Source of the DNA: a virus | Strand: one strand, 5' to 3' | IMG/VR virus record: IMGVR_UViG_3300013126_000082 | Coordinates: 1 to 40,277 of that record | DNA length: 40,277 nucleotides | Part shown: positions 4,667-24,089 of the stretch, one piece after another | How positions within the stretch are numbered: position 1 is the stretch's first letter | Layout: each line of letters starts with the position of its first letter | The notes under the pieces: generated by a model | Databases searched by the model: none | What the model was told of the DNA's origin: nothing | Seen by the model: the letters and a program-made list of their open reading frames with translations, nothing else | Program-made: the position numbers and the translations under genes

Positions 4667-5573
4667 GACCACGCGGAGCAGGGTCCTGCGTGAAGTCTAA
4701 CCAGGTTTTACGCAGGCCCTCCTCCAAACCGACTTGAGGCGACCACCCCAAGGATCGCATCAGCGTCACGTCAAAAGTTTTTCTTGGGATCCCGGTAGGC
4801 TTAGAAGCGTCCCACTGTACCGGACTTTTCATCCCTGACACTTGCTGCAGGAGGTCGGCCAACTCTTTGATGGTGTGGCCTACCCCGGTCCCGACCGAAA
4901 TGACATCCGGGGTGTTCCATCGTTCGAGCACTACCTCAATAGCAGAAGCTACGTCAGAGGAGTGAATGAATTCTCGCACAGCAGACCCGTCTCCCCATAC
5001 GACTGGGACTTCTCCTTTCGTCATCGCCTGGTGAAACTTTGCGATCAGCGCGGGAATCACATGCGCCGACGGCCCATAGTTGTCGCGGTCTCCGTAGATG
5101 TTAGACGGGTTGATTGTCATGAACTTCTTCCCGTGTTCTTCCCAATACGCCTTGCACAGTCGCCACCCAGCGATTTTGGCGATGGCGTAGGCTTCGATGG
5201 AATCGTCCAGCCGCCCAGTAAGCAGCGAGTCTTCCCGGACTGGAAGTTCGGCATCTCGCGGAAACATGCAAGACGTCCCCACAAAGATCAGCTTCTCGGT
5301 ATTGAATTCTGCTGCGGCTGAAATCACATTGACTTGCATGCGCAAATTGTCCTGCAGAAACGAGACCGGCTGGGACTTATTGGCGGCGACGCCTCCTACC
5401 TTGGCGGCGCAGTGGATCACCTCTTGCGGCTTGTGGCGGAAGAAAAAACGGGCCACCTCATTCTCATTCTTGCAGTCGCCCTCAAACAGAAGCACTTTCC
5501 GGCGACCAGCAAAATGCCTGACACACGCTGAGCCGAGAAGTCCCCGGTGGCCGGTGATGAGCAATGTTTTCAT
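4641..5573 (-). CDS. fcl: GDP-L-fucose synthase-like SDR epimerase/reductase
   Basis: A 310-residue extended short-chain dehydrogenase. It has the NAD(P)-binding motif TGHRGLLGSA (residues 7-16), the AAKVGGVAANKSQPVSF segment typical of GDP-L-fucose synthase (56-72), GTSCMFP (99-105), and catalytic Y129xxxK133 (YAIAK). The family turns GDP-4-keto-6-deoxymannose into GDP-L-fucose by C3/C5 epimerisation and reduction. Start 5573 is supported by the ATGA overlap with the upstream glycosyltransferase; a longer in-frame start at 5639 would add 22 poorly conserved residues. It is the last gene of a four-gene sugar cassette and would supply a nucleotide sugar to those transferases. The matching dehydratase (Gmd) is not in the window and may come from the host. 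Confidence 0.85.
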   Translation of the reverse strand: MKTLLITGHRGLLGSACVRHFAGRRKVLLFEGDCKNENEVARFFFRHKPQEVIHCAAKVGGVAANKSQPVSFLQDNLRMQVNVISAAAEFNTEKLIFVGTSCMFPRDAELPVREDSLLTGRLDDSIEAYAIAKIAGWRLCKAYWEEHGKKFMTINPSNIYGDRDNYGPSAHVIPALIAKFHQAMTKGEVPVVWGDGSAVREFIHSSDVASAIEVVLERWNTPDVISVGTGVGHTIKELADLLQQVSGMKSPVQWDASKPTGIPRKTFDVTLMRSLGWSPQVGLEEGLRKTWLDFTQDPAPRGLTPGSPRR

Positions 5574-6289
5574 AGGGTTGCGCGGTAAGCCTTCTGCAAA
5601 GTCCGAAGGATCTCTCCCGATTTGATCGCGTGAATGCAAGTCGCTTTGCGCTTAGTGACGCAGTCTAACATGACAAGCAAGCCGTTTTGCGTGACTGTCT
5701 CGCAGCTGGCTCCGTGGCGGAAAGGCAGGTGTTTGATCTTGCCGTGTTCGCAAGCGGGGACGAACCACCAGTCGATGAAAGGTGTAACTGGGCAAGCTTG
5801 CAAGCCAGCTGAGGCAGCGACCAATCGCTCCAGAACTTGGCGAGACATGAAGTACGGCGGTTGCATCGCGATAAGAGGATATCCCGCGTGGTAGTCATCT
5901 GCCCAACGAATGCCTTCGAACACTTGGCCTGGCACGCGAAAGTCTGTCACTTCGTTGCTGTAAAGAATCTCTGGGTCGTCAAACAAATACTCTGGAATCT
6001 GCGGCGACAAGATGAGCGAATCAGAATCATTGAGTAGATACCAGTCAAAGTCGTACTCGAGCAAGATTTTCAACTGCAAATGCTGCCGGTCCCAAGAATC
6101 TTGCCCAACGTAAGCTCGCTTGCCGGCGAACCTACAGGAGTGGCGTCCCATTCGCTCGATCTTCGAGTCTTCTGGAGACATGATGACGATAGGGCAGCGA
6201 TGATGTTCAAACACCGGCATCAATTCGACTACTTGCTGCTGGTCTCCTGCATAGCAGTGAACTGAAACTAACGTTTTGCGGTTGTTCAT
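5570..6289 (-). CDS. Glycosyltransferase-like protein (239 aa)
   Basis: A 239-residue GT-A-like protein. The N-terminus (TLVSVHCYAGDQQQV) begins like a nucleotide-sugar transferase, and NDSDSLIL (about residues 87-94) supplies a DxD motif for metal and nucleotide-sugar binding. FIDWWFVPACEHGKIKHLPF (about 170-189) resembles the acceptor-side region of phage-encoded transferases. It overlaps both neighbours by ATGA and is co-translated with the fucose synthase and another transferase. The substrate is unknown; decoration of the virion or of a host surface glycan are the main options. Confidence 0.65.
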   Translation of the reverse strand: MNNRKTLVSVHCYAGDQQQVVELMPVFEHHRCPIVIMSPEDSKIERMGRHSCRFAGKRAYVGQDSWDRQHLQLKILLEYDFDWYLLNDSDSLILSPQIPEYLFDDPEILYSNEVTDFRVPGQVFEGIRWADDYHAGYPLIAMQPPYFMSRQVLERLVAASAGLQACPVTPFIDWWFVPACEHGKIKHLPFRHGASCETVTQNGLLVMLDCVTKRKATCIHAIKSGEILRTLQKAYRATL

Positions 6290-7014: not shown

Positions 7015-7973
7015 ACGACAGCTGTGTGAACACCGTAGACGCCGTAGCCGACATGCAGCGCGTGCAAGCGAGCGTCTACGTAAGGTTGAACTCCGACTTC
7101 TTTCGCCCGCTTGCAGAAAGCGATGTCTTCTCCCCGCCCGTCCATGCCTGGCTGAAAGAAGTTCCACGGCTGACTATCGTGCGCTGGCGCCAGCTCAGGA
7201 AGTTCTTCTTGCATCTTGAGAAACACGTTCCGATGCACGAGCATAAGCCCAGTCCCGACCCAGTCACAAGGGAAAAGACGATTCTCAAACACGCGTGCCG
7301 CTCTACAGTATTCCGAGTCTCGCAAGAGGGAATTGACTGGCAGGCCGGTACCGTTGCGCGTGTAGTAGGTTCCTCCGACCAACCAGTGCCCAGACTCTTT
7401 CAAGCGGTCGAGCGTCTGCAAAGCAAGCGGCGCGTCAGGGTAGCTGTCTGGAAGTCGCGCCAACTGACGAAGCATACTGGCTCGCCCGATAGGAAACAGC
7501 ATGTCGTCGTCCACGAACAAAAGCCAGTTCGCTTCTGTCTCGAGAAACTTCATGGCCAGTCGATTCCGAGCGTGATAGATCATCGCATCGCCCAACTCCA
7601 TGTCAAAACGAACTTTCTCTTTCCCGTAGTCAAGCGCCAGCGCAAGCAGACACCACGCGGTCGCAGGATTAGTAGCTTTGTAGGCGGGAAATCCGACGAA
7701 CACGTCGCGGCCCTCCCAATCGGCGACCGCTGGCGCTAGTCGTGCTGCACTTCCTTCTGGAATGCCTTTCTCTGGCGCCAAAACCGCATCCACGACCTTT
7801 TCTGCAGCCGGAGTAGGCAAACTTGCCTCTGCAACTTGCAGCTCCTCTGGCGAAGTCTCCGAGTCTGTCTCGGCAAGATCAGACTCGTCGACGCCGCTGA
7901 TGCTCCCGCCAAACCCAGCTGGAATTTCTACCGCAGGCTTGGCCTTCGGCTTTTTCAGGTTGAAGCGGCCCAT
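7011..7973 (-). CDS. GT-A family glycosyltransferase with disordered N-terminal extension
   Basis: A 320-residue protein. Residues 1-85 are low-complexity and acidic. The catalytic domain begins around residue 90 (DVFVGFPAYKATNP), with MIYHARNRLA (131-140), the metal-binding VDDDMLFP (154-161), VGTGLMLVHRNVF and, near the C-terminus, GEDIAFCKRAKEVG, a common arrangement in GT2-like phage glycosyltransferases. The N-terminal extension resembles the composition of the scaffold-like protein encoded immediately upstream, so it may dock the enzyme to the capsid assembly line (inference). It is separated from the scaffold stop by only 2 bases. Confidence 0.8.
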   Translation of the reverse strand: MGRFNLKKPKAKPAVEIPAGFGGSISGVDESDLAETDSETSPEELQVAEASLPTPAAEKVVDAVLAPEKGIPEGSAARLAPAVADWEGRDVFVGFPAYKATNPATAWCLLALALDYGKEKVRFDMELGDAMIYHARNRLAMKFLETEANWLLFVDDDMLFPIGRASMLRQLARLPDSYPDAPLALQTLDRLKESGHWLVGGTYYTRNGTGLPVNSLLRDSEYCRAARVFENRLFPCDWVGTGLMLVHRNVFLKMQEELPELAPAHDSQPWNFFQPGMDGRGEDIAFCKRAKEVGVQPYVDARLHALHVGYGVYGVHTAVV

Positions 7974-7975
7974 GA

Positions 7976-9286
7976 TTACGCCTCGGCTTCAGCTGCTGCG
8001 AGAGCGGCCTCGATCGCTTCGTCATCAGACATCTTTGAAGTATCTGGCGCAATCGCAGGACGTGTTTCACGCCCAGTTCGCTGTCCGCCGGGCACGCGAG
8101 TCGCGCCTTTGATTCCTTCAAGTTCTTTCTGAATCTTCGCTTTCTCTGCAGTCTCCGCGGCCAGCTGAGCTGTCAGTTCCTTGACGCGGGACGCCAACAC
8201 CGTGGACGCGACCGCAGCCGCAGCAATTTCGGCGCGCGCTTGTGGCGTAGCCGGCCAGAGTGACTGCTGAAAGATGTTGCCGAGTTCAACGACGTTAGCG
8301 TTGTGCGCTTCTGCCTGCTTCAGCTCCTCGCCTTTGAGACCCTCGGTCGGAACCAGGTTCGCCCAGGGAATGTCCTTGGTGATCGAGGCCAGGTGCGTTT
8401 CGATGGCGGTCTTGTCCTGGGTGAAACGCTCCATCTGAGCTTTCTCTCGCTCAGCCAACACCTCGTCTTGCTGGGACGCAAATTTCTCGAGCTCCGCGCT
8501 TCGCTGGTCAAGCAGGTCGGCCCGCTCAGCGATACGCTTCTGCACACGTTCCCGGTCCACGAAAGACAGCTTGCTGAGAATGTTATCTTCCCAAAACTTC
8601 GGGTCGATGTTGTTGACGCCGATCTCCCGCATGGACTTCTCGGTTTCCTCTGAGAGGCCTTGCGCCCGGAGAAGACGAAAGAGATCGTCATCGATCGCCG
8701 AAAGTTTCCCGTCAAACTGCTGCTTGAACTCCGGATCATTCTGCGCATCAAACACTTTGCGGAAGGTGCGCAGCTCCTGAAGTTCTTGCGCCACTGCGGC
8801 TGGCACGGCGCCGGCAGCTTTCGCTTTCTCCAGCTCTGCTTCCAGCGCAGGCACGCGCTTGGCGACAGCTTGGTGATGCTTCGCAACTTCCCGGAGTTTG
8901 TCGAAGTTGACCAGGTTTCGTGGGCTGACGCCGGCCGGGGGAGCGATCTTATCTAAGTCGAGCGCTTCCAAATCGGCGATTCGTTTCGCTTCAGCTTCCT
9001 CAGGAGTCGGCTGCGGCGTAGGCTCAGGCTGCGGCGTAGGCTCAGGCTGCGGCGCTGCGTCAGGCTGCGGCGCTGCGTCAGGCTGCGGGATGACTTCTTC
9101 CGGCGGCTTGTTGGCGTCGTCTGTCGCAGCGGGGAAGTCCCCGTCTTGAATGCCGGCTTCGTCCAAGGCGGCGTCGAGTTCGCTGCTAATTTGCGAAGAC
9201 GGCTCTTCAACGGATTGAAGATCTTCTTCTGCGGTGAGACCAGCCGTAACTGGTTTTTCTGCTTTGGCGGTGCGTGGTTTGCTCAT
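7976..9286 (-). CDS. Probable scaffolding / capsid assembly protein
   Basis: A 436-residue, highly charged, mostly helical protein. It has a disordered N-terminus with a run of PQPDAA and PQPEPT repeats (about residues 66-95), a long coiled-coil-like middle (about 130-310) and an Ala/Glu-rich C-terminus. No enzyme motif is seen. The position between portal and capsid, the size and the composition fit scaffolding proteins. The Pro repeats are encoded by an 18-bp tandem DNA repeat. If the protein is a scaffold, it would be expelled or cleaved during maturation, but no protease domain was recognised. Confidence 0.65.
   Translation of the reverse strand: MSKPRTAKAEKPVTAGLTAEEDLQSVEEPSSQISSELDAALDEAGIQDGDFPAATDDANKPPEEVIPQPDAAPQPDAAPQPEPTPQPEPTPQPTPEEAEAKRIADLEALDLDKIAPPAGVSPRNLVNFDKLREVAKHHQAVAKRVPALEAELEKAKAAGAVPAAVAQELQELRTFRKVFDAQNDPEFKQQFDGKLSAIDDDLFRLLRAQGLSEETEKSMREIGVNNIDPKFWEDNILSKLSFVDRERVQKRIAERADLLDQRSAELEKFASQQDEVLAEREKAQMERFTQDKTAIETHLASITKDIPWANLVPTEGLKGEELKQAEAHNANVVELGNIFQQSLWPATPQARAEIAAAAVASTVLASRVKELTAQLAAETAEKAKIQKELEGIKGATRVPGGQRTGRETRPAIAPDTSKMSDDEAIEAALAAAEAEA
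9009..9089 (-). repeat. 18-bp tandem repeat inside the scaffold-like gene
   Basis: About four and a half copies of an 18-bp unit, with two near-identical subtypes, at 9009-9026, 9027-9044, 9045-9062, 9063-9080 and a part copy to 9089. They encode six-residue PQPEPT and PQPDAA repeats. The copy number could vary by slippage and would change the length of a disordered Pro-rich linker. Confidence 0.85.
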
Positions 9287-17913: not shown

Positions 17914-18144
17914 ATGCCCAAGACTACTCTCACTCCGCGCGAGCGAGCCCAAGAAATCAAGCGGCTGCGGCTCGTGTTGAAGACTGGCCGGTTCACCTGC
18001 CGGGAGATGGCTTCCATCCGAGGGAAGATCGGCGGGCTCTCCGGCTACAATCATCCCGGCAGACGCAAGGGCGGATACGCCGCGGCCAAGAAACGCTGGG
18101 GCTTCGTGCCCTCAAAAGCCAAGCTCAGCAAACCCAAACCATGA
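17914..18144 (+). CDS. Small basic protein, DNA-binding candidate (76 aa)
   Basis: A 76-residue basic protein with a central GKIGGLSGYNHPGRRKGGYAAAKKR stretch rich in Gly, Arg and Lys. Its helical N-terminus ends with a Cys-containing segment (FTCREMASIRGKIGG). The charge fits a nucleic-acid binding role. Family unknown. It ends in an ATGA overlap with a short frame (18141). Confidence 0.6.
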   Translation: MPKTTLTPRERAQEIKRLRLVLKTGRFTCREMASIRGKIGGLSGYNHPGRRKGGYAAAKKRWGFVPSKAKLSKPKP

Positions 18145-18305
18145 GCCACCTCTCCTGCGCAGCAGACGACTACTCCAAGGCTACGAACCCACGACGGGCA
18201 CTCAGCTGCAAAGCTACAAACCCACGACGGGCACTCAGCCAGCCGAGTAACGAGCCCATTTCGGGCGCTCTGCTGCGCAGGACCTCTTTTTATGAAACCT
18301 TCTGA
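18141..18305 (+). CDS. Possible 54-residue ORF with an 11-residue tandem repeat
   Basis: Starts by ATGA overlap with the previous stop and encodes two copies of KATNPRRALS at 11-residue spacing, then a degenerate third. The repeats come from a DNA repeat (about 33 bp) that lies within a long inverted repeat, so the frame may be a by-product of that element. The stop overlaps the start of the 18292 gene. Confidence 0.25.
   Translation: MSHLSCAADDYSKATNPRRALSCKATNPRRALSQPSNEPISGALLRRTSFYETF
18153..18282. repeat. 14-bp inverted repeat enclosing three ~33-bp tandem repeats
   Basis: The arms TCCTGCGCAGCAGA (18153-18166) and TCTGCTGCGCAGGA (18269-18282) are perfect complements. Between them, about 30 bases recur starting at 18180, 18213 and 18247; the first two copies are nearly identical and the third diverged. 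The arms contain the palindrome CTGCGCAG. The unit looks like a small mobile or structural element rather than a gene. Confidence 0.7.
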
Positions 18306-18639
18306 AATCCTGGCCGAAGCGAAGGCCATTCACGCCCAGCTGCAGGACATGCTGCTGGCCGAAATACCCAAGCCAGAAAACTGTGTCTTAGACTGTCGCT
18401 GGTGGGTGGTCTCAGAGTACGCCGACTTCCAAGTCAAACTGCTTGGCAAAGTCCAGATCAACGGATCCGAACACGAGTTTTCTTACGGGCTTCCCATGGA
18501 CGCGTCTCGGGAAGACCTCTCTCGAGTCTACGAGCTCTTCGTTAGAGACTTCATCCTCAAATCTGGAATCCGCGACGATCTGGCGAAAGCCGTAACCGAC
18601 GCACGCATCTTCCCGTTAAAGAAAGGCATCCCTGCATGA
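18292..18639 (+). CDS. Hypothetical protein (115 aa)
   Basis: A 115-residue protein of no recognised family (MKPSEILAEAKAIHAQLQDML). It has a helical N-terminus, then a beta-rich region with Cys32 and Cys35 or nearby (VLDCRWWVVSEYADFQVKLLG), and a helical C-terminus. It overlaps the next gene by 4 bases. Function unknown. Confidence 0.65.
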   Translation: MKPSEILAEAKAIHAQLQDMLLAEIPKPENCVLDCRWWVVSEYADFQVKLLGKVQINGSEHEFSYGLPMDASREDLSRVYELFVRDFILKSGIRDDLAKAVTDARIFPLKKGIPA

Positions 18640-18977
18640 ACTCATCCTTCCGACTCCAATTCCGAGCGACGCGCTCTCCATTCCTAGGCGACTGCATTGA
18701 GCTATTCTGTGCTGCGATCACCGAAGACAACGGCGTCCGCAAAGTTCGCATCGCCAGGTCGCCGGCGCTCGACACTCTCACAGACGACGAGCTTTGCTGC
18801 TCGCAGTCGCCGATGCTCTCACTCACGCAGCAGAGCGCCCAGCAGCTGATGGACGAACTCTGGCAGACCGGGCTCCGCCCCACAGAAGGCACCGGCTCGG
18901 CAGGCGCGCTTGCTGCTACCGAAAGACACCTCTCCGACATGCGCGCTCTGGTCTTCAAGCAGAACCCAAAATTGTGA
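18636..18977 (+). CDS. Hypothetical phage protein (113 aa)
   Basis: A 113-residue protein. Its C-terminal half (LMDELWQTGLRPTEGTGSAGALAATERHLSDMR) matches a motif recalled from many uncharacterised phage proteins. The N-terminal half is beta-like. It overlaps both the previous and the next gene by 4 bases and reads as one translational unit with them. Confidence 0.65.
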   Translation: MNSSFRLQFRATRSPFLGDCIELFCAAITEDNGVRKVRIARSPALDTLTDDELCCSQSPMLSLTQQSAQQLMDELWQTGLRPTEGTGSAGALAATERHLSDMRALVFKQNPKL

Positions 18978-19396
18978 GCACCGCCGAAAAACTGAACATC
19001 ATCCGCGCCGAGTGCGTGAGGCTTTTGGAACTGAGCGAGAAGCGGACGCAGGGGAGGTGGATAACACACATCGTAGGCTGTCATTGGACCGCGATTGAAA
19101 TTCCTGACACAGCCCCCGTTGGAGAAAGTAAAGGCAAAAATTCAACTCCAATGTGCGCGGATAGAGACGCCGCCTTCATCGCAGCCTGTGCCGGAAACGC
19201 CGAGGCTGGGTGGAAGTCCACGATTGCGGCGATTGACGGACTAACAGAAATCGCTTGGATAAAAGAAACAGGTCTCAGAGACTACTCTTGGACGGGAGAC
19301 AAAGCACTTCAAACGCTCAACGACATCATCTCCGCATGGTCGAGCCTCGGACTCTTGGAGGGAGATATTGTGGCGAACGCCAAAGATCACGTATGA
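18974..19396 (+). CDS. Hypothetical protein in the cassette array (140 aa)
   Basis: Begins with GTG at 18974 overlapping the previous stop (GTGA); an earlier in-frame ATG at 18794 lies inside the preceding gene and is rejected. Residues 5-30 (LNIIRAECVRLLELSEKRTQGRW) and 60-85 (DAAFIAACAGNAEAGWKSTIAAID) resemble a hypothetical protein family common in phages and prophages. The ending AWSSLGLLEGD recurs in the protein at 21753. The last 25 bases lie in the first attC-like site. The left boundary of its cassette was not found. Confidence 0.65.
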   Translation: MSTAEKLNIIRAECVRLLELSEKRTQGRWITHIVGCHWTAIEIPDTAPVGESKGKNSTPMCADRDAAFIAACAGNAEAGWKSTIAAIDGLTEIAWIKETGLRDYSWTGDKALQTLNDIISAWSSLGLLEGDIVANAKDHV

Positions 19397-19471
19397 CCAC
19401 CAGCGCGACAGACTCCAATCCGCAAACCGGCGTGGCCGCTGGTGGGCATTACGTGGATCGCCTTGTTCGCC
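19372..19471 (+). repeat. attC-like site a
   Basis: The outer sites are GGCGAAC (19372-19378) and GTTCGCC (19465-19471), perfect complements. The inner arms at 19385-19405 and 19437-19459 pair over about 20 bases, broken by a single mismatch and two single unpaired bases, a shape typical of folded attC sites. The loop is 31 bases. The next cassette begins with TTCGCC. Confidence 0.65.
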
Positions 19472-19806
19472 TTCGGTTGGAAATGTGGGAGGAAGGCTGG
19501 GAATCCGACGACAAGCTCACCACACAGGGGTGGGGAAGCGGTCTCGGATACTCGATTTGGTTTACGCGCTGGGACTGGCACGGGAAAAATCTCACGGCTT
19601 TCCGGGCAACCTACCATGCGCACGGGTTGGTCGCTGACGGGATAATGCCGGTCGCTGAAAAGGCCGCATCACTGGCACGGGAGGCATGGGCAAAATTTCC
19701 AGAAGAGCCGCCGAATCAACTGCCCGGATATATTCTGGCGAACGACCTTCGTCAGCCGCCCCTACCGGTGGCTGACTCAACTACCATCAAAAGCGCCGAC
19801 CGGTAG
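19393..19806 (+). CDS. Hypothetical cassette-encoded protein (137 aa)
   Basis: Two start sites are possible. ATG 19393 overlaps the previous stop as ATGA, but then the first 25 residues come from attC-like site a. ATG 19483 (MWEEGWESDDK) lies just after the end of that site and gives a 107-residue protein, the usual placement in a cassette. The core GWGSGLGYSIWFTRWDWHGK is Trp-rich and beta-like. Function unknown. Its 3' end lies in attC-like site b. Confidence 0.6.
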   Translation: MTTSATDSNPQTGVAAGGHYVDRLVRLRLEMWEEGWESDDKLTTQGWGSGLGYSIWFTRWDWHGKNLTAFRATYHAHGLVADGIMPVAEKAASLAREAWAKFPEEPPNQLPGYILANDLRQPPLPVADSTTIKSADR

Positions 19807-19832
19807 GGGTTGGCTGCACGAAATTGTTCGAC
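19737..19832 (+). repeat. attC-like site b
   Basis: R'' is GGCGAAC (19737-19743); R' is GTTCGAC (19826-19832). Inner arms pair as TTCGT with ACGAA, CAGCC with GGCTG, and CCCCTACCGGT (19759-19769) with ACCGGTAGGGG (19799-19809), with small unpaired bulges. The outer R''/R' pairing fails at the last two bases. This fits a hybrid junction: R'' belongs to the left cassette and R' to the right one. Confidence 0.7.
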
Positions 19833-19836
19833 ATTT

Positions 19837-20106
19837 ATGGGCACCGTCAAAATAGAAAAAATCAAGCTGACCATCGCTGGTCAGGAAGTGGAAATGACTC
19901 TGGAGCAGGCACGGGAACTCCGCGCTATCCTCAACGAACTGTGGCCGGAACCGACAGAAAAACTGGTTCCGATGCCACAACCATACCCGGTTGCCCCGTA
20001 TCAGCCGCCCGTCATCATCGAGCGGTGGCCGGAATATCCGTGGTGGCAACAACCGATCATCACATGCCAGTCAGGGAACCAAACGCTGTGCATCGCTGCA
20101 AAATGA
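19837..20106 (+). CDS. Hypothetical cassette-encoded protein (89 aa)
   Basis: An 89-residue protein starting 4 bases after attC-like site b, the usual place in a cassette. It begins MGTVKIEKIKLTIAGQEVEMTLEQARELRAILNELW, a short beta-helix domain resembling a family of small phage or mobile-element proteins. The second half is Pro/Trp/Tyr-rich. A TTG 27 bases upstream is rejected as a start. Function unknown. Confidence 0.65.
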   Translation: MGTVKIEKIKLTIAGQEVEMTLEQARELRAILNELWPEPTEKLVPMPQPYPVAPYQPPVIIERWPEYPWWQQPIITCQSGNQTLCIAAK

Positions 20107-20110
20107 ATAT

Positions 20111-20117
20111 GTCGAAC
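20111..20117 (+). repeat. Half of an attC-like site (c)
   Basis: GTCGAAC lies just after the stop of the 19837 gene. It is the exact complement of GTTCGAC at that cassette's left end (19826-19832). No complementary R' was found within 150 bases, although GATTCGGTG at 20226-20234 resembles the R' half of site d with one base changed. The junction seems degraded. Confidence 0.5.
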
Positions 20118-20156
20118 GCCTAGCTCTGGCACCGCCACCACTTACACCCCAAAACT

Positions 20157-20498
20157 ATGCCCACCAAAAAATCAGCATCGAACGAAACTGAAACGCAGCC
20201 AACACCGAAACCGCCCACGGGTGAGGATTCGGTGCATGAACCTGCTTTGCCTCGGCACGAAAATCGCCGACGGATGTGTGTTGCTGAGAAAGATGTGCCC
20301 TACACTACAGAAGGGAATGTAGTGTGGAGGCGTGAGCCGTGCGGAGGCGAGGCAATGGAGGGCAGCAAATTCTGCCGATGGCATCACCGCGACGACTATT
20401 TGAGACCAGAGACAATCAAAGGCTTTGTCATGCCGAACGTCCGCGATCACCGGCACTCAGCCGGTGGCGCGACGGATGCCAAGGAGGAAAAACTATGA
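20157..20498 (+). CDS. Cys/His-containing cassette-encoded protein (113 aa)
   Basis: A 113-residue protein with a disordered N-terminus (about residues 1-35), then CVAEK-x(n)-EPCGGEAMEGSKFCRWHHRD (about residues 42-80), with spaced Cys and His residues that could bind zinc. No family recognised. The segment TGEDSV near the N-terminus is encoded by DNA resembling a site d half. It ends by ATGA overlap with the next gene and an AGGAGG sequence 7 bases before that ATG. Confidence 0.6.
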   Translation: MPTKKSASNETETQPTPKPPTGEDSVHEPALPRHENRRRMCVAEKDVPYTTEGNVVWRREPCGGEAMEGSKFCRWHHRDDYLRPETIKGFVMPNVRDHRHSAGGATDAKEEKL

Positions 20499-20564
20499 AA
20501 GAAAATGAAACGATAGCATCCGGCGTGACGCCGGGTGAGTGTTCGGTGGATCGCTCTGTTCGGC
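20432..20564 (+). repeat. attC-like site d
   Basis: R'' is GCCGAAC (20432-20438) and R' is GTTCGGC (20558-20564), perfect complements; GTTCGGT at 20541 is a second candidate. Inner arms are 20447-20464 and 20520-20538 (TCACCGGC with GCCGGGTGA, and GCCGG with CCGGC, with small bulges). A local hairpin CACCGGC-ACTCA-GCCGGTG (20448-20466) may form instead. The loop contains the SD and start codon of the 20495 gene. Confidence 0.5.
20481..20487 (+). promoter_or_regulatory. Strong Shine-Dalgarno sequence of the 20495 gene
   Basis: AAGGAGG followed by 7 bases before ATG. Most genes in the window lack such a site, so its presence here supports a different origin for this cassette and decides the start. 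Confidence 0.65.
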
Positions 20565-20854
20565 CTATTGTCGTCCTGGTGACCCGGGATGAAGCGATCA
20601 TGGCAAGGTCACTTGCAGCGTATCACGGAAAGATCGCTGACAAAATCCGCGCCGGGGGAATCTCTCTCGGGATGATGCTCTGGCTGGCTGGAGTGTCGGA
20701 AATGACAAATGACGAAATACAGCAAGGGTGGCTGAAAGAACTCTCAAAGCACAATCTGAGCCGAGTGGATGTCGAATCTCTGCCGGATGGTGGAACGCGC
20801 ATTCTTCTTTGGCCGAACGCAAAAGTGACCGATGCGAAGCATTCGGCCCACTGA
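20495..20854 (+). CDS. Hypothetical cassette-encoded protein (119 aa)
   Basis: Starts at 20495 with an AGGAGG sequence 7 bases upstream and an ATGA overlap with the previous stop. The first ~20 residues come from site d, so a shorter version from ATG 20600 is an alternative. The rest (RDEAIMARSLAAYHGKIADKIRAGGISLGMMLWLAGVSEM) is helical. No family recognised. Its last residues (NAKVTDAKHSAH) nearly repeat those of the 20878 gene, because both are encoded by attC-like DNA. Confidence 0.65.
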   Translation: MKENETIASGVTPGECSVDRSVRPIVVLVTRDEAIMARSLAAYHGKIADKIRAGGISLGMMLWLAGVSEMTNDEIQQGWLKELSKHNLSRVDVESLPDGGTRILLWPNAKVTDAKHSAH

Positions 20855-20864
20855 CTTGTTCTCA
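20812..20864 (+). repeat. attC-like site e
   Basis: R'' GCCGAAC (20812-20818) closes the left cassette. R' GTTCTCA (20858-20864) opens the next. They pair only over GAAC/GTTC, as expected for a hybrid junction. The inner hairpin spans 20825-20851: GTG-CCGA-TGC, loop GAA, GCA-TTCGG-CAC. The TGC/GCA pair is TCC/GGA in site f, a compensatory change. Confidence 0.7.
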
Positions 20865-20877
20865 GGATATTTTTACT

Positions 20878-21732
20878 ATGGAAAACTCGAAAATCGAATG
20901 GACAACGCACACCTTTAATCCGTGGATCGGATGCACGAAGGTATCGCCTGGGTGCGCCAACTGCTACGCAGAAACGCTCATGGATAAACGGTTCGGTCGT
21001 GCGAAATGGGGAGATGAAAACCCAAGATCGCTGACAAGTCGGGCGGAATGGGCAAAGCCTCTCAAGTGGAATCGTGACTATGCGGAAGGGGACATCATGG
21101 CAGATCCTCCGGTGCAACGTCCTCGCGTGTTCTGCGCTTCCCTCTCGGACTGGCTCGACTGGAAAGCGCCCGTTGAATGGCGGGTAGAACTGCTGCGTCT
21201 GATCGAAAAAACACCGTTTCTGAATTGGTTGATGCTCACCAAAAGGCCTGAAAGCTGGGAGGCTCGGATGATGGAAGCCTGCCATGCTTCGCCTCTGGCT
21301 GGGAAGTGGCTGAATGGGGATGCCCCTCACAATGTCTGGATGGGAACCAGCGTAGAAGATCAAGCGCGAGCCAACGAAAGGATTCCTCTCCTACTGGAGA
21401 TCCCTGCGCGAATCCGCTTCCTGTCATGTGAACCGCTGCTCGGCCCGGTGAGCATCCCCGACGCGCTGCCTTGGAAAATCGGGAGCGAGGGGAAGACCGC
21501 TGGAATCCATTGGGTAATTTGCGGCGGCGAGAGTGGCCCCGGATCACGCCAGATGCAGCCGGAATGGGCTCGGCAACTCCGCGACGATTGCGAGGAAGCG
21601 CATGTTGCCTTCCTATTCAAACAATGGGGCGGAGTGGACAAAAAAGCGAATGGCCGAGAACTGGACGGCCGCACGCACGACGATATTCCTGAGAACGCAA
21701 AAGTGGCCGATCCGAAGGATTCGGTCCACTAA
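20878..21732 (+). CDS. Phage Gp37/Gp68 family (DUF5131) protein
   Basis: A 284-residue protein of the family often called phage Gp37/Gp68. The start at 20878 (MENSKIEWTTHTFNPW) lies 13 bases after attC-like site e; an in-frame ATG at 20728 lies inside the previous gene. Residues 13-31 carry FNPWIGCTKVSPGCANCY with Cys19, Cys26 and Cys29, which may bind a metal or Fe-S cluster; the family has a radical-SAM-like barrel. LMLTKRPE (about 120-127), VWMGTSVEDQ and WVICGGESGPGSRQM match conserved blocks of the family. The biochemical activity is not established. It is the largest cassette in the array. Confidence 0.85.
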   Translation: MENSKIEWTTHTFNPWIGCTKVSPGCANCYAETLMDKRFGRAKWGDENPRSLTSRAEWAKPLKWNRDYAEGDIMADPPVQRPRVFCASLSDWLDWKAPVEWRVELLRLIEKTPFLNWLMLTKRPESWEARMMEACHASPLAGKWLNGDAPHNVWMGTSVEDQARANERIPLLLEIPARIRFLSCEPLLGPVSIPDALPWKIGSEGKTAGIHWVICGGESGPGSRQMQPEWARQLRDDCEEAHVAFLFKQWGGVDKKANGRELDGRTHDDIPENAKVADPKDSVH

Positions 21733-21742
21733 CCTGTTCGAC
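21690..21742 (+). repeat. attC-like site f
   Basis: R'' TGAGAAC (21690-21696) is the exact complement of GTTCTCA at this cassette's left end (20858-20864). R' is GTTCGAC (21736-21742), the left end of the next cassette. The inner hairpin (21703-21729) is GTGG-CCGA-TCC, loop GAA, GGA-TTCGG-T-CCAC. Confidence 0.75.
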
Positions 21743-21752
21743 ATTTTGAATT

Positions 21753-22121
21753 ATGGAACTGGAAAACAACCCACTCAGAGATATCAATAACGCCCGAAAC
21801 CTGCCAAGGACTGATGGAATCCCGACCTCAGTAAATGAGTATCTGGAAACCCCGGCCACTCGACACGCACTTAGGATGCTTGGCGACAAGTGCATCGCGC
21901 TGACAAGGGATAACGACAGGCTTCGTGAGGAATCGCTTGCATGGCGCCACAAGTGCGAGCGACTGCATAGTCTCCTCGACCCTGACAGTATTATCTCAGC
22001 CTGTGTCCCCGGCGGAGACGCGTGCGACCCGCAACAAGTTGCTGATGCGATACGGGAATATTTGTCGAACGTCGCTATCACCGCGTGGTCGGGCCTCGGA
22101 CTATGGGAGGACGGGGAGTGA
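21753..22121 (+). CDS. Hypothetical cassette-encoded protein (122 aa)
   Basis: A 122-residue protein starting 10 bases after attC-like site f. Residues about 30-75 (TPATRHALRMLGDKCIALTRDNDRLREESLAWRHKCERL) form a coiled-coil-like helix, as seen in small phage proteins. The C-terminal YLSNVAITAWSGLGLWEDGE shares AWSxLGLxE with the protein of the 18974 gene. No function known. The end overlaps the next gene by GTGA and lies in site g. Confidence 0.65.
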   Translation: MELENNPLRDINNARNLPRTDGIPTSVNEYLETPATRHALRMLGDKCIALTRDNDRLREESLAWRHKCERLHSLLDPDSIISACVPGGDACDPQQVADAIREYLSNVAITAWSGLGLWEDGE

Positions 22122-22168
22122 GCACCTTCAGTGGATCCATCACAAGCGGCGGCAGCGACGAGTTCAGC
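22064..22168 (+). repeat. attC-like site g
   Basis: R'' GTCGAAC (22064-22070) is the exact complement of GTTCGAC at this cassette's left end (21736-21742). R' is GTTCAGC (22162-22168). Inner arms pair as GTCGCT (22071-22076) with AGCGAC (22154-22159), then CCGC with GCGG across a 4-base internal loop, with GA unpaired on the right. No cassette ending in GCTGAAC was found just downstream, so this may be the array end. Confidence 0.6.
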
Positions 22169-22411
22169 GAAGTCCAGACGAGGTCCCGCCGGTCTTTCGC
22201 CCAACCAAAGCCCCGCACGCCGCTGCAGGAGGAGGCACTTGACAAGATCCGAGCCGACTTCCTCCAGGACCTGGATGATTCTGTCACCGTCGAGGTGGAC
22301 GACTTCGAGGCCGACTTCTTGAAGTCCAACTTACGTAGGAAGTCCTTCTCACCCGGTCAGCGCCGAGTCATCGATAAGATGCGCCGGAAATTCGAAAGAC
22401 GCTTGTCATGA
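22118..22411 (+). CDS. Hypothetical protein at the array end (97 aa)
   Basis: Starts with GTG at 22118 overlapping the previous stop. An ATG 33 bases upstream lies in the previous gene. The first ~15 residues are encoded by site g. The rest is helical (TPLQEEALDKIRADFLQDLDDS) with a conserved-looking C-terminus FSPGQRRVIDKMRRKFERR. No function known. The next small gene begins at 22408 by ATGA overlap. Confidence 0.6.
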   Translation: MSTFSGSITSGGSDEFSEVQTRSRRSFAQPKPRTPLQEEALDKIRADFLQDLDDSVTVEVDDFEADFLKSNLRRKSFSPGQRRVIDKMRRKFERRLS

Positions 22412-22566
22412 AGCCAGGCGACCTCATCACAAAGACTAGCCATCATCCGCGAGGCAAGCGGCACGGGGTGCTTATCTCATTGAAGGGCAAGACGGCTACC
22501 GTGAAGTTGCACGGCATGAAAGAACAGCTTCGCCTGCCTGCAAATAAGCTGGTTTTGAAGCCTTGA
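22408..22566 (+). CDS. Small SH3/KOW-like protein (52 aa)
   Basis: A 52-residue basic protein beginning MKPGDLITKTSHHPRGKRHG and containing GVLISLKGKTATVKLHG, a pattern typical of small SH3-like barrels that bind nucleic acid or protein. The ATGA overlap with the previous gene supports the start, and a shared-type promoter follows immediately. Confidence 0.6.
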   Translation: MKPGDLITKTSHHPRGKRHGVLISLKGKTATVKLHGMKEQLRLPANKLVLKP

Positions 22567-22585
22567 AAAATGATCAAAAATTTTA

Positions 22586-22613
22586 TTTACTTTTAAGTGA
22601 CGGTTAGTTATTC
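22586..22613 (+). promoter_or_regulatory. Leaderless-type promoter for the 22625 gene
   Basis: -35 TTTACT (22586-22591), 16-base spacer, -10 TTATTC (22608-22613), then 11 bases to the ATG. The spacer ends with GGTTAG, as in the other family members, and the start context is TTTTGTCATGAG. Confidence 0.65.
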
Positions 22614-22624
22614 TTAGTTTTGTC

Positions 22625-23056
22625 ATGAGTAACCTACACACTCCTACAGTCAACTTGGCTGACAAACATCAGCTCAAGCTCCTCCGCACGAAAATGGACG
22701 AAGCCCTCGCCACTTTGGCAGATATGGGCGTCACCTTGAAGTGCGGCTCCATCAAATACTGCGCAGACGGAACAGTCGCGACAATCACAGTCGACGCGAC
22801 AACCGGGCAAGCCAGAGGCAAAGACCAATACCAACTCGCCTTTGAGCGCTTGCACGCCTGCTACGGCTTCACCCGCGAGATGCTCGGCAACCGCTTCACG
22901 CATAAAGGCGTTTCCTACGAGCTTCACGGCCTGGCGCCCAACCGCTCGAAATTCCCCATCGTGGGAAAAGGACCCGACGGGAAGATCTTGCTCTTCACTA
23001 AGAGCGTCGTCCCGCAAATCCAATCCGGAGAGAAGCCTCTGTTTCCCAACGGTTAA
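22625..23056 (+). CDS. Hypothetical early protein (143 aa)
   Basis: A 143-residue protein with its own promoter. A helical N-terminus (HQLKLLRTKMDEALATLADMG) is followed by a beta-rich core with CGSIKYCADGTVATITVD and a second domain (FTHKGVSYELHGLAPNRSKFPIVG) resembling small SH3-like regions. No family recognised. It leads the small gene cluster up to 24750. Confidence 0.65.
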   Translation: MSNLHTPTVNLADKHQLKLLRTKMDEALATLADMGVTLKCGSIKYCADGTVATITVDATTGQARGKDQYQLAFERLHACYGFTREMLGNRFTHKGVSYELHGLAPNRSKFPIVGKGPDGKILLFTKSVVPQIQSGEKPLFPNG

Positions 23057-23060
23057 TCCC

Positions 23061-23519
23061 ATGAGCGCACTGCCCATTTACTACAGCATTCGCGACTTCA
23101 AAAACGGATACCGCGGCTACTGGCTTAGCGAGCAGCCGGACTCCCAGGTCTGGGCGCACGGGTTTTTCTGGGACGGCCGCGGTCCTCACAAAGCGACGCA
23201 GTACCACGCAGCGGAAGCCGCAAAAGAAGCGGCCGCTCACTTTGTCAACCGCGGGCACATCTCAGAAGACGGCTTTCTCATTGAGGTGCGCGCTACGTGC
23301 GTCGCTGAGCTGGTCGCTGAGTTGTCTCGCGCGGGGTTTGAAACTGAGTGCGACTCTTACGCCTTTCAGTGGCCCAACGCTACGTACGAACAGGGACGCT
23401 TGATGCGAAATCCCGTGACTGGGGAGGCTTGTCTTTTACGCAAGCGAGACTTTTTATGCGCGGTCGGGACATACCTCCCAGTCCCAGCCGCAGAGCCCAA
23501 GCAACTGCTTCTCTTCTAA
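23061..23519 (+). CDS. Hypothetical protein (152 aa)
   Basis: A 152-residue protein starting at 23061, 4 bases after the previous stop. No domain recognised. Aromatic and His-rich stretches (YYSIRDFKNGYRGYWLSEQPDSQVWAHGFFWDGRG) suggest a compact fold, and HAAEAAKEAAAHFVNRGH a helix. Function unknown. Confidence 0.6.
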   Translation: MSALPIYYSIRDFKNGYRGYWLSEQPDSQVWAHGFFWDGRGPHKATQYHAAEAAKEAAAHFVNRGHISEDGFLIEVRATCVAELVAELSRAGFETECDSYAFQWPNATYEQGRLMRNPVTGEACLLRKRDFLCAVGTYLPVPAAEPKQLLLF

Positions 23520-23523
23520 GAAT

Positions 23524-23739
23524 ATGTCTACACCCAAAAAACCCAAGCCGGAGTTAGTCGTGTCTATCGCGCAGCTTACCCACGAGCAAGCGAAAGAAAA
23601 GGCCTACGCCGTTCTCGAGTGGTTGCACAACCACCCCATCACGGAAGACTTTTCTCCGCAGGAGAGGCTTCATCACATCGGCCGCTGCAACGACATTAAG
23701 TCGACGCTCACTACGCTGCTGCACAACTTGAACCTATGA
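23524..23739 (+). CDS. Hypothetical protein (71 aa)
   Basis: A 71-residue helical protein (LTHEQAKEKAYAVLEWLHNHPITEDFSPQERLHHIGR). No family recognised. It overlaps the next gene by ATGA. Confidence 0.6.
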   Translation: MSTPKKPKPELVVSIAQLTHEQAKEKAYAVLEWLHNHPITEDFSPQERLHHIGRCNDIKSTLTTLLHNLNL

Positions 23740-24089
23740 AGCCCCTGCCTCAAAAATTCTCCAAGCACGGCTTCGAGTTCGAGCTTATCAAGCGAGAAGG
23801 CGACGTCGCTCTTCTCAAGAAGACGCGCGGCGCTTACGCTGGGTACGAAGTCGTGAAGATCCAGAAGCATAATGGCGTCGAATACGAAGGCTCAGTCACA
23901 GAGGCCGCCGAGCATCTTCCGGGAAACTCCGACTGGGGCATCTCCGGGTTCACTTATCTGCTCGCCGATCTTGATCGCGCCGAACGCCGATTCGCCCAAC
24001 TGGTCGCGTTCAAACAGCACCAGACGGCGACCAAAGACGTCAAGGGCATCTCCCGATCGTTCAAACTCACACTGAAAAAACTCACATGA
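23736..24089 (+). CDS. Hypothetical protein (117 aa)
   Basis: A 117-residue protein with a beta-sheet-like N-terminal half (FEFELIKREGDVALLKK) and a helical C-terminal half (LADLDRAERRFAQLVAF). No known domain. It overlaps the next gene by ATGA. Confidence 0.6.
   Translation: MKPLPQKFSKHGFEFELIKREGDVALLKKTRGAYAGYEVVKIQKHNGVEYEGSVTEAAEHLPGNSDWGISGFTYLLADLDRAERRFAQLVAFKQHQTATKDVKGISRSFKLTLKKLT

Follow-up and report, generated by a model that had tools for sequence, protein, structure and literature searches.

Integron recombination sites carry core boxes of the consensus RYYYAAC and GTTRRRY, and integrons are thought to fix the orientation of their cassettes for gene reading from the Pc promoter. 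In known attC sites the unpaired extra base sits in the L'' box (PMC2727003). Among phages, virulent ones have been found to carry attC arrays without an integrase (CALINs) and some temperate ones complete integrons; phage attC sites are recombined by IntI1, giving G|TTRRRY junctions, and for typical phage arrays the orientation given is that of bacterial arrays (Qi et al., 2023, PMC9892861).

The locus reported here lies in a 40,277-base virus record (IMG/VR IMGVR_UViG_3300013126_000082), the whole of which we call the window. It carries genes for terminase subunits, a DNA polymerase, a helicase, an exonuclease and a dCMP deaminase; the phage is a lytic-looking, tailed virus of bacteria. Searches of known phage records found no cultured close relative, and DNA searches in phage and plasmid records gave no match. 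A first-pass annotation made from the sequence alone had proposed that the phage bears an array of integron-type cassettes whose GTTC core is non-standard, a proposal supported by the hairpins, the ownership of cassette ends and the excess over shuffled sequence presented below. We are fairly confident that the locus is an integron cassette array without integrase, i.e. a CALIN, in a tailed phage, and that it constitutes a viral variant with inverted cassettes.

All features of the array lie on the + strand. The ten core boxes listed in that annotation are all present where it placed them; of its seven sites five are complete (a, b, d, e and f), while c and g are partial, with one end each. 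Site a (19372-19471, 100 nt, GGCGAAC ... GTTCGCC) encloses an ATGA overlap in which gene 1 stops (19396) and gene 2 starts (19393). Gene 2 (19393-19806, 137 aa, no family match) ends in site b (19737-19832, 96 nt, GGCGAAC ... GTTCGAC), whose R boxes differ by one base, each coming from a different cassette. Gene 3 (19837-20106, 89 aa, no family match) is followed by the degenerate site c (20111-20260), with the R'' box GTCGAAC only and R' absent; site c looks chimeric or degenerate because its right-hand sequence is matched by the right half of an attC that is complete in the virus contig L051. The N-terminal part of gene 4 (20157-20498, 113 aa) is encoded in attC-derived sequence, and its stop falls in site d (20432-20564, 133 nt, GCCGAAC ... 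GTTCGGC), the loop of which offers AAGGAGG and then the ATG of gene 5 (20495-20854, 119 aa, no relatives found in other virus contigs). Next come site e (20812-20864, 53 nt, GCCGAAC ... GTTCTCA) and gene 6 (20878-21732), a DUF5131 gene (PF07505, phrog_2045) whose C-terminal tail and stop are encoded by site f (21690-21742, 53 nt, TGAGAAC ... GTTCGAC). Gene 7 (21753-22121, 122 aa, no family match) contains the truncated site g, an R'' box GTCGAAC at 22064-22070 that pairs with the R' of site f as matching cassette ends and has no credible R' after it. The C-terminal ends of genes 1 and 7 are alike (AWSxLGLxE; 19335-19365 and 22079-22110), one copy lying before an attC box and the other after one, suggestive of some earlier rearrangement where the array begins and ends.

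The five complete sites have R'' and R' boxes flanking paired L'' and L' arms with unpaired spacers, as in attC, and under DNA parameters, the check proposed in the first-pass annotation, they fold into long imperfect hairpins; site e folded in isolation yields its hairpin only without its R boxes. They depart from the core consensus: AAC and GTT are kept, and the fourth base of R' is C in five out of five, as had been stated. As attC loop lengths are too variable for the alignment tool to support a covariance model, structure detection was by our own folding-based detector, with TerL relatives as background. In its strict form the detector recovers four sites from 19300-22250 (complete site a fails the filter because of one opposite bulge) and never more than two from dinucleotide shuffles, with none, one or two sites in 265, 32 and 3 of 300 shuffles. 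In each of the five cassettes R' matches the R'' at the cassette's far end, so that tandem short genes stand between attC sites with complementary cassette ends, as in a CALIN; the R''/R' mismatches at junctions b, e and f are likewise as originally described. Permuting ends within the array gave p = 0.017 for the window alone. In a pooled permutation over four arrays 0 of 200,000 trials reached the observed end match, with the caveat that in the other arrays end matching helped to select a few of the R' boxes: two candidates existed for R' in the last L050 site, and two L051 sites derive from a search requiring matching ends.

Hairpins between genes can be terminators, and the sites might be no more than intergenic hairpins, terminators or chance structures. 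Terminator-like motifs do not exceed their frequency in shuffles, and this reading would leave unexplained the ownership of ends, the excess over shuffles, the recurrence of one repeat between different genes elsewhere and the core-exact breakpoints discussed below; we give this explanation next to no credence, since in practice the data on ownership and breakpoints already refute it.

Returning to the cassette array, its sites also carry the punctuation of the genes. The gene upstream of each of the five complete sites has its stop codon inside that site, and sites a and d also hold the start codon of the next, in ATGA overlaps. L039, an 84-kb virus record with a seven-site array of the same build, has the upstream stop inside six of its seven sites and the next start inside six of seven. 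Over four arrays with 23 sites in all, 19 stops and 11 starts lie inside, with gene starts assigned by ORF and start codon, versus 2/10 and 0/10 in class 1 controls. An N-terminal leader peptide, e.g. NETETQPxPxxxTGEDSV, recurs as the product of some attC loops, as in the window at 20157-20260, in L051:2537-2667 and in attC loops of L172 and L181.

The extra-helical bases give the sites a polarity. Read in the attC sense, control sites from class 1 plasmids and chromosomes have two or three extra bases on the 5' arm and none on the 3' arm (2/0 or 3/0), one chromosomal site having 3/1, and nearly always show an A after R'' and a C before R'; these controls are mainly class 1 plasmids, as few of the Gammaproteobacterial genome arrays fetched gave detectable sites. 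Read in the gene sense, the window sites are the mirror image, with AACG at the left and TGTT at the right, and the one-armed excess of extra bases falls on the 3' arm at all five, site a carrying its single opposite bulge in addition. The arrays of L037, L039, L050 and L051 have the 3'-arm excess in the gene sense too. Since the extra-base pattern mirrors that of the controls, the window genes run against attC polarity, that is, the cassettes are not co-oriented with their attC as in the bacterial type. The layout first assumed, a gene followed by its attC, is contradicted by the extra-helical bases, by the position of attI and intI in related arrays, and by homology breakpoints. Because all three of these locate the crossover in the left box of every site, a cassette comprises an attC and the gene downstream of it.

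As first reported, the window has no integrase: the whole record gave no match to PF00589 or TIGR02249, and a motif search found no match to the attI motif of L039 and L050. A search for a tyrosine recombinase elsewhere had been suggested, and other virus contigs do carry IntI beside arrays of the same build. In L039 the array is followed by a full-length IntI of 323 residues with the conserved tyrosine-recombinase motifs, whose best solved relative is IntI4 and whose TIGR02249 score, 213 bits, falls short of the curated cut-off (265). The L050 array ends in a deleted form (L050:9646-10047), a 133-residue in-frame IntI-like protein 44% identical to the L039 IntI, in which the N-terminal part and the C-terminal motif are kept and most of the catalytic domain between them is gone; it could be a relic or a regulator. 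The tyrosine recombinases of the L051 record were considered as IntI and rejected as ordinary phage integrases.

Homology breakpoints between viral arrays bear on where cassettes are joined. L158, whose record holds a major head protein gene, and L172 share intI and the 81 bases upstream of it at about 95% identity; the identity begins exactly at GCCTAAC in one and GCCGAAC in the other, and the cassettes beyond are unrelated. This is the pattern that different cassettes inserted at one attI, GTTA versus GTTC, would leave. L161 and L163, with near-identical intI/attI, diverge likewise at GAACAGTGATT, a motif that also stands in front of intI in L039 and L050. For an attC common to L158 and L172, the shared stretch opens with the left AAC box and extends beyond R' to include leader sequence of the following gene. 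The homology of the DUF5131 cassette between the window and L037 starts at the left AAC box of the attC before the gene; the right end of this cassette says less, as it lies between two similar attC repeats. All these breakpoints place the cassette boundary at the left box, as reversed polarity predicts. Because a GTTA cassette in one virus and a GTTC cassette in another adjoin the same type of viral attI, and genuine IntI genes adjoin related arrays, the divergent recombinase invoked for the GTTC cores need not be a new kind of enzyme. The pair L062/L063 was dropped as evidence on cassette change, being one phage assembled twice.

Ownership of ends is symmetrical and so compatible with either polarity, and at sites b, e and f the gene starts close to the right box; one could accordingly envisage, as the first-pass annotation implied, normal, co-oriented cassettes whose divergent recombinase reads a mirror-image attC and cuts the right box. 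This we find very unlikely: intI in L039 and L050 is on the side expected for reversed polarity, the breakpoints fall at the left box, and genes with their start codons often begin to the left of the right box.

Inverted cassettes are thus the favored reading, and similar arrays recur in other viral contigs. The attC repeat of sites e and f is found almost unchanged between other genes in L037, L050 and L051. A search pattern with GTTC on both sides had no viral match, and one without a fixed fourth base matched three viral stretches; two matches of this same pattern in a genome scan were unrelated and judged chance. GTTC and GTTA cores stand side by side in L037, L050 and L051 with matching ends, e.g. 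GTTAGCC with GGCTAAC and GTTCGCA with TGCGAAC. A census of 80 viral IntI-like loci recovered a number with arrays 5' of intI whose polarity leads away from it. It gave 66 cassettes with exactly matching ends, and background loci gave none; the fourth R' base was C in 28, A in 28, G in 9 and T in 1, and gene direction, clear in 27 of the 66 (39 unclear), was inverted in 19 and co-oriented in 8, versus 10/10 co-oriented among class 1 control cassettes, these shares being rough because some contigs group with bacterial IntI in the tree and may be cellular. L149 (IMGVR_UViG_2914811602_000004) has an IntI identical over the aligned part to the class 1 IntI1 of L101; the contig may be cellular, or else viral and bearing a class 1 integron. 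L172 has at 579-1670 a second attC-like group, whose polarity is the reverse of that of the array leading to intI, at a distance of about 7 kb.

The distribution of these arrays also bears on their source. Phages can pick up pieces of host integrons (PMC9892861), the window record is without intI, and canonical GTTA cores occur within the same family of arrays, all of which is consistent with a piece of a bacterial chromosomal integron with GTTC-type sites that was captured by the phage and is moved, if at all, by the IntI of the host. The IntI genes of matching build sit in virus contigs with phage genes, and the genome scan yielded only its two unrelated matches; because other virus contigs share both the attC repeat and the DUF5131 cassette, a viral origin seems more probable than capture from a host integron, which we judge unlikely overall.

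In the phage genome the array is part of an accessory insert (18145-23735, +). The neighbors of this insert, at 17914-18144 and 23736-24089, are about 0.5 kb apart in the TerL relative L001 versus 5.6 kb in the window, and in several other TerL relatives the spacing from 17914 to the helicase is 1-2.5 kb versus 6.6 kb. The array is therefore an insert relative to these phages, which are without it, and the comparison of related phages for gene loss or gain that had been recommended thus revealed absence of the whole insert. Among the TerL relatives there were no comparable arrays, the structure scan giving only scattered matches unlike the window array, and no close relative of the window phage with a different array was found.

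The sequence evidence covers the sites, ownership of ends, polarity, insert status, IntI beside like arrays elsewhere and core-exact breakpoints; from it we infer the recombination chemistry, a helper acting in trans, transcription as an operon and translational coupling. The mobile unit would consist of a folded attC and the gene behind it, with its limits at GAA|C of the left boxes. Such units would be added one by one at attI by a tyrosine recombinase of the IntI family whose substrate is the attC strand in folded form, which here is the + strand that encodes the genes. As the attC is 5' of its gene, the hairpin often carries the stop of the previous gene and the start of its own, and with these codons in the hairpins the row can be read as one coupled operon, presumably from an upstream phage promoter and not from an integron Pc promoter, and the ribosomes would move on from each gene to the next within the hairpins; promoter and terminator scans did no better than on shuffles. 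With no intI in the record, cassette change would need an IntI from another virus or the host, or else the array is a remnant. That the row is a former integron array, now fixed phage genes immobile to any integrase, is possible, though on the whole we doubt it: two of the seven sites (c and g) are degenerate and the record has no integrase, but in the five others the arms still pair, the extra-helical bases are kept and the cassette ends match. The question is one of present activity alone, and either answer agrees with the origin as a cassette array preferred here.

We lean slightly towards a broader interpretation, namely a virus-specific class of integrons in which the attC is a 5' cassette module that provides signals for translation stop and start, with genes oriented towards the integrase and GTTC cores accepted by viral IntI lineages. 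If true, phages would own a dedicated gene-swapping device with which to exchange accessory genes within a translationally coupled operon, and viral integrons would be under-detected; the viral variant makes testable predictions on strand choice, core tolerance and translation.

Set against the known systems, the class 1 arrays of the plasmid records L099, L101 and L103 share with the window the R''/R' boxes, the hairpin with two extra-helical bases and the ownership of ends, but their ten cassettes are all co-oriented, they have GTTA or GTTG cores, and none of their attC sites contains a start codon. Sedentary chromosomal integrons resemble L039 and L050 in that intI diverges from attC polarity with attI at its 5' side; unlike in these integrons, the genes of L039 and L050 point towards intI, and the window is without intI. 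Virus Rctr41k (KX853513, L104) is a published phage record with, at 4680-5678 and 7921-8545 and as in the viral arrays here, an IntI-like gene (labelled xerD) and attC-like sites, but its detected sites have canonical cores and its genes are co-oriented with attC. In the literature covered, with preprints and most subscription papers outside its scope, we found no report of phage cassettes inverted as a rule, of GTTC cores or of attC-borne start codons. The phage CALINs of Qi et al. (2023) are, like the window, attC arrays without integrase in phages, and differ in that the window has GTTC cores and genes against attC polarity: phage CALINs were thus already known, and the inverted cassettes, the GTTC cores and the attC-borne start codons are what is new.
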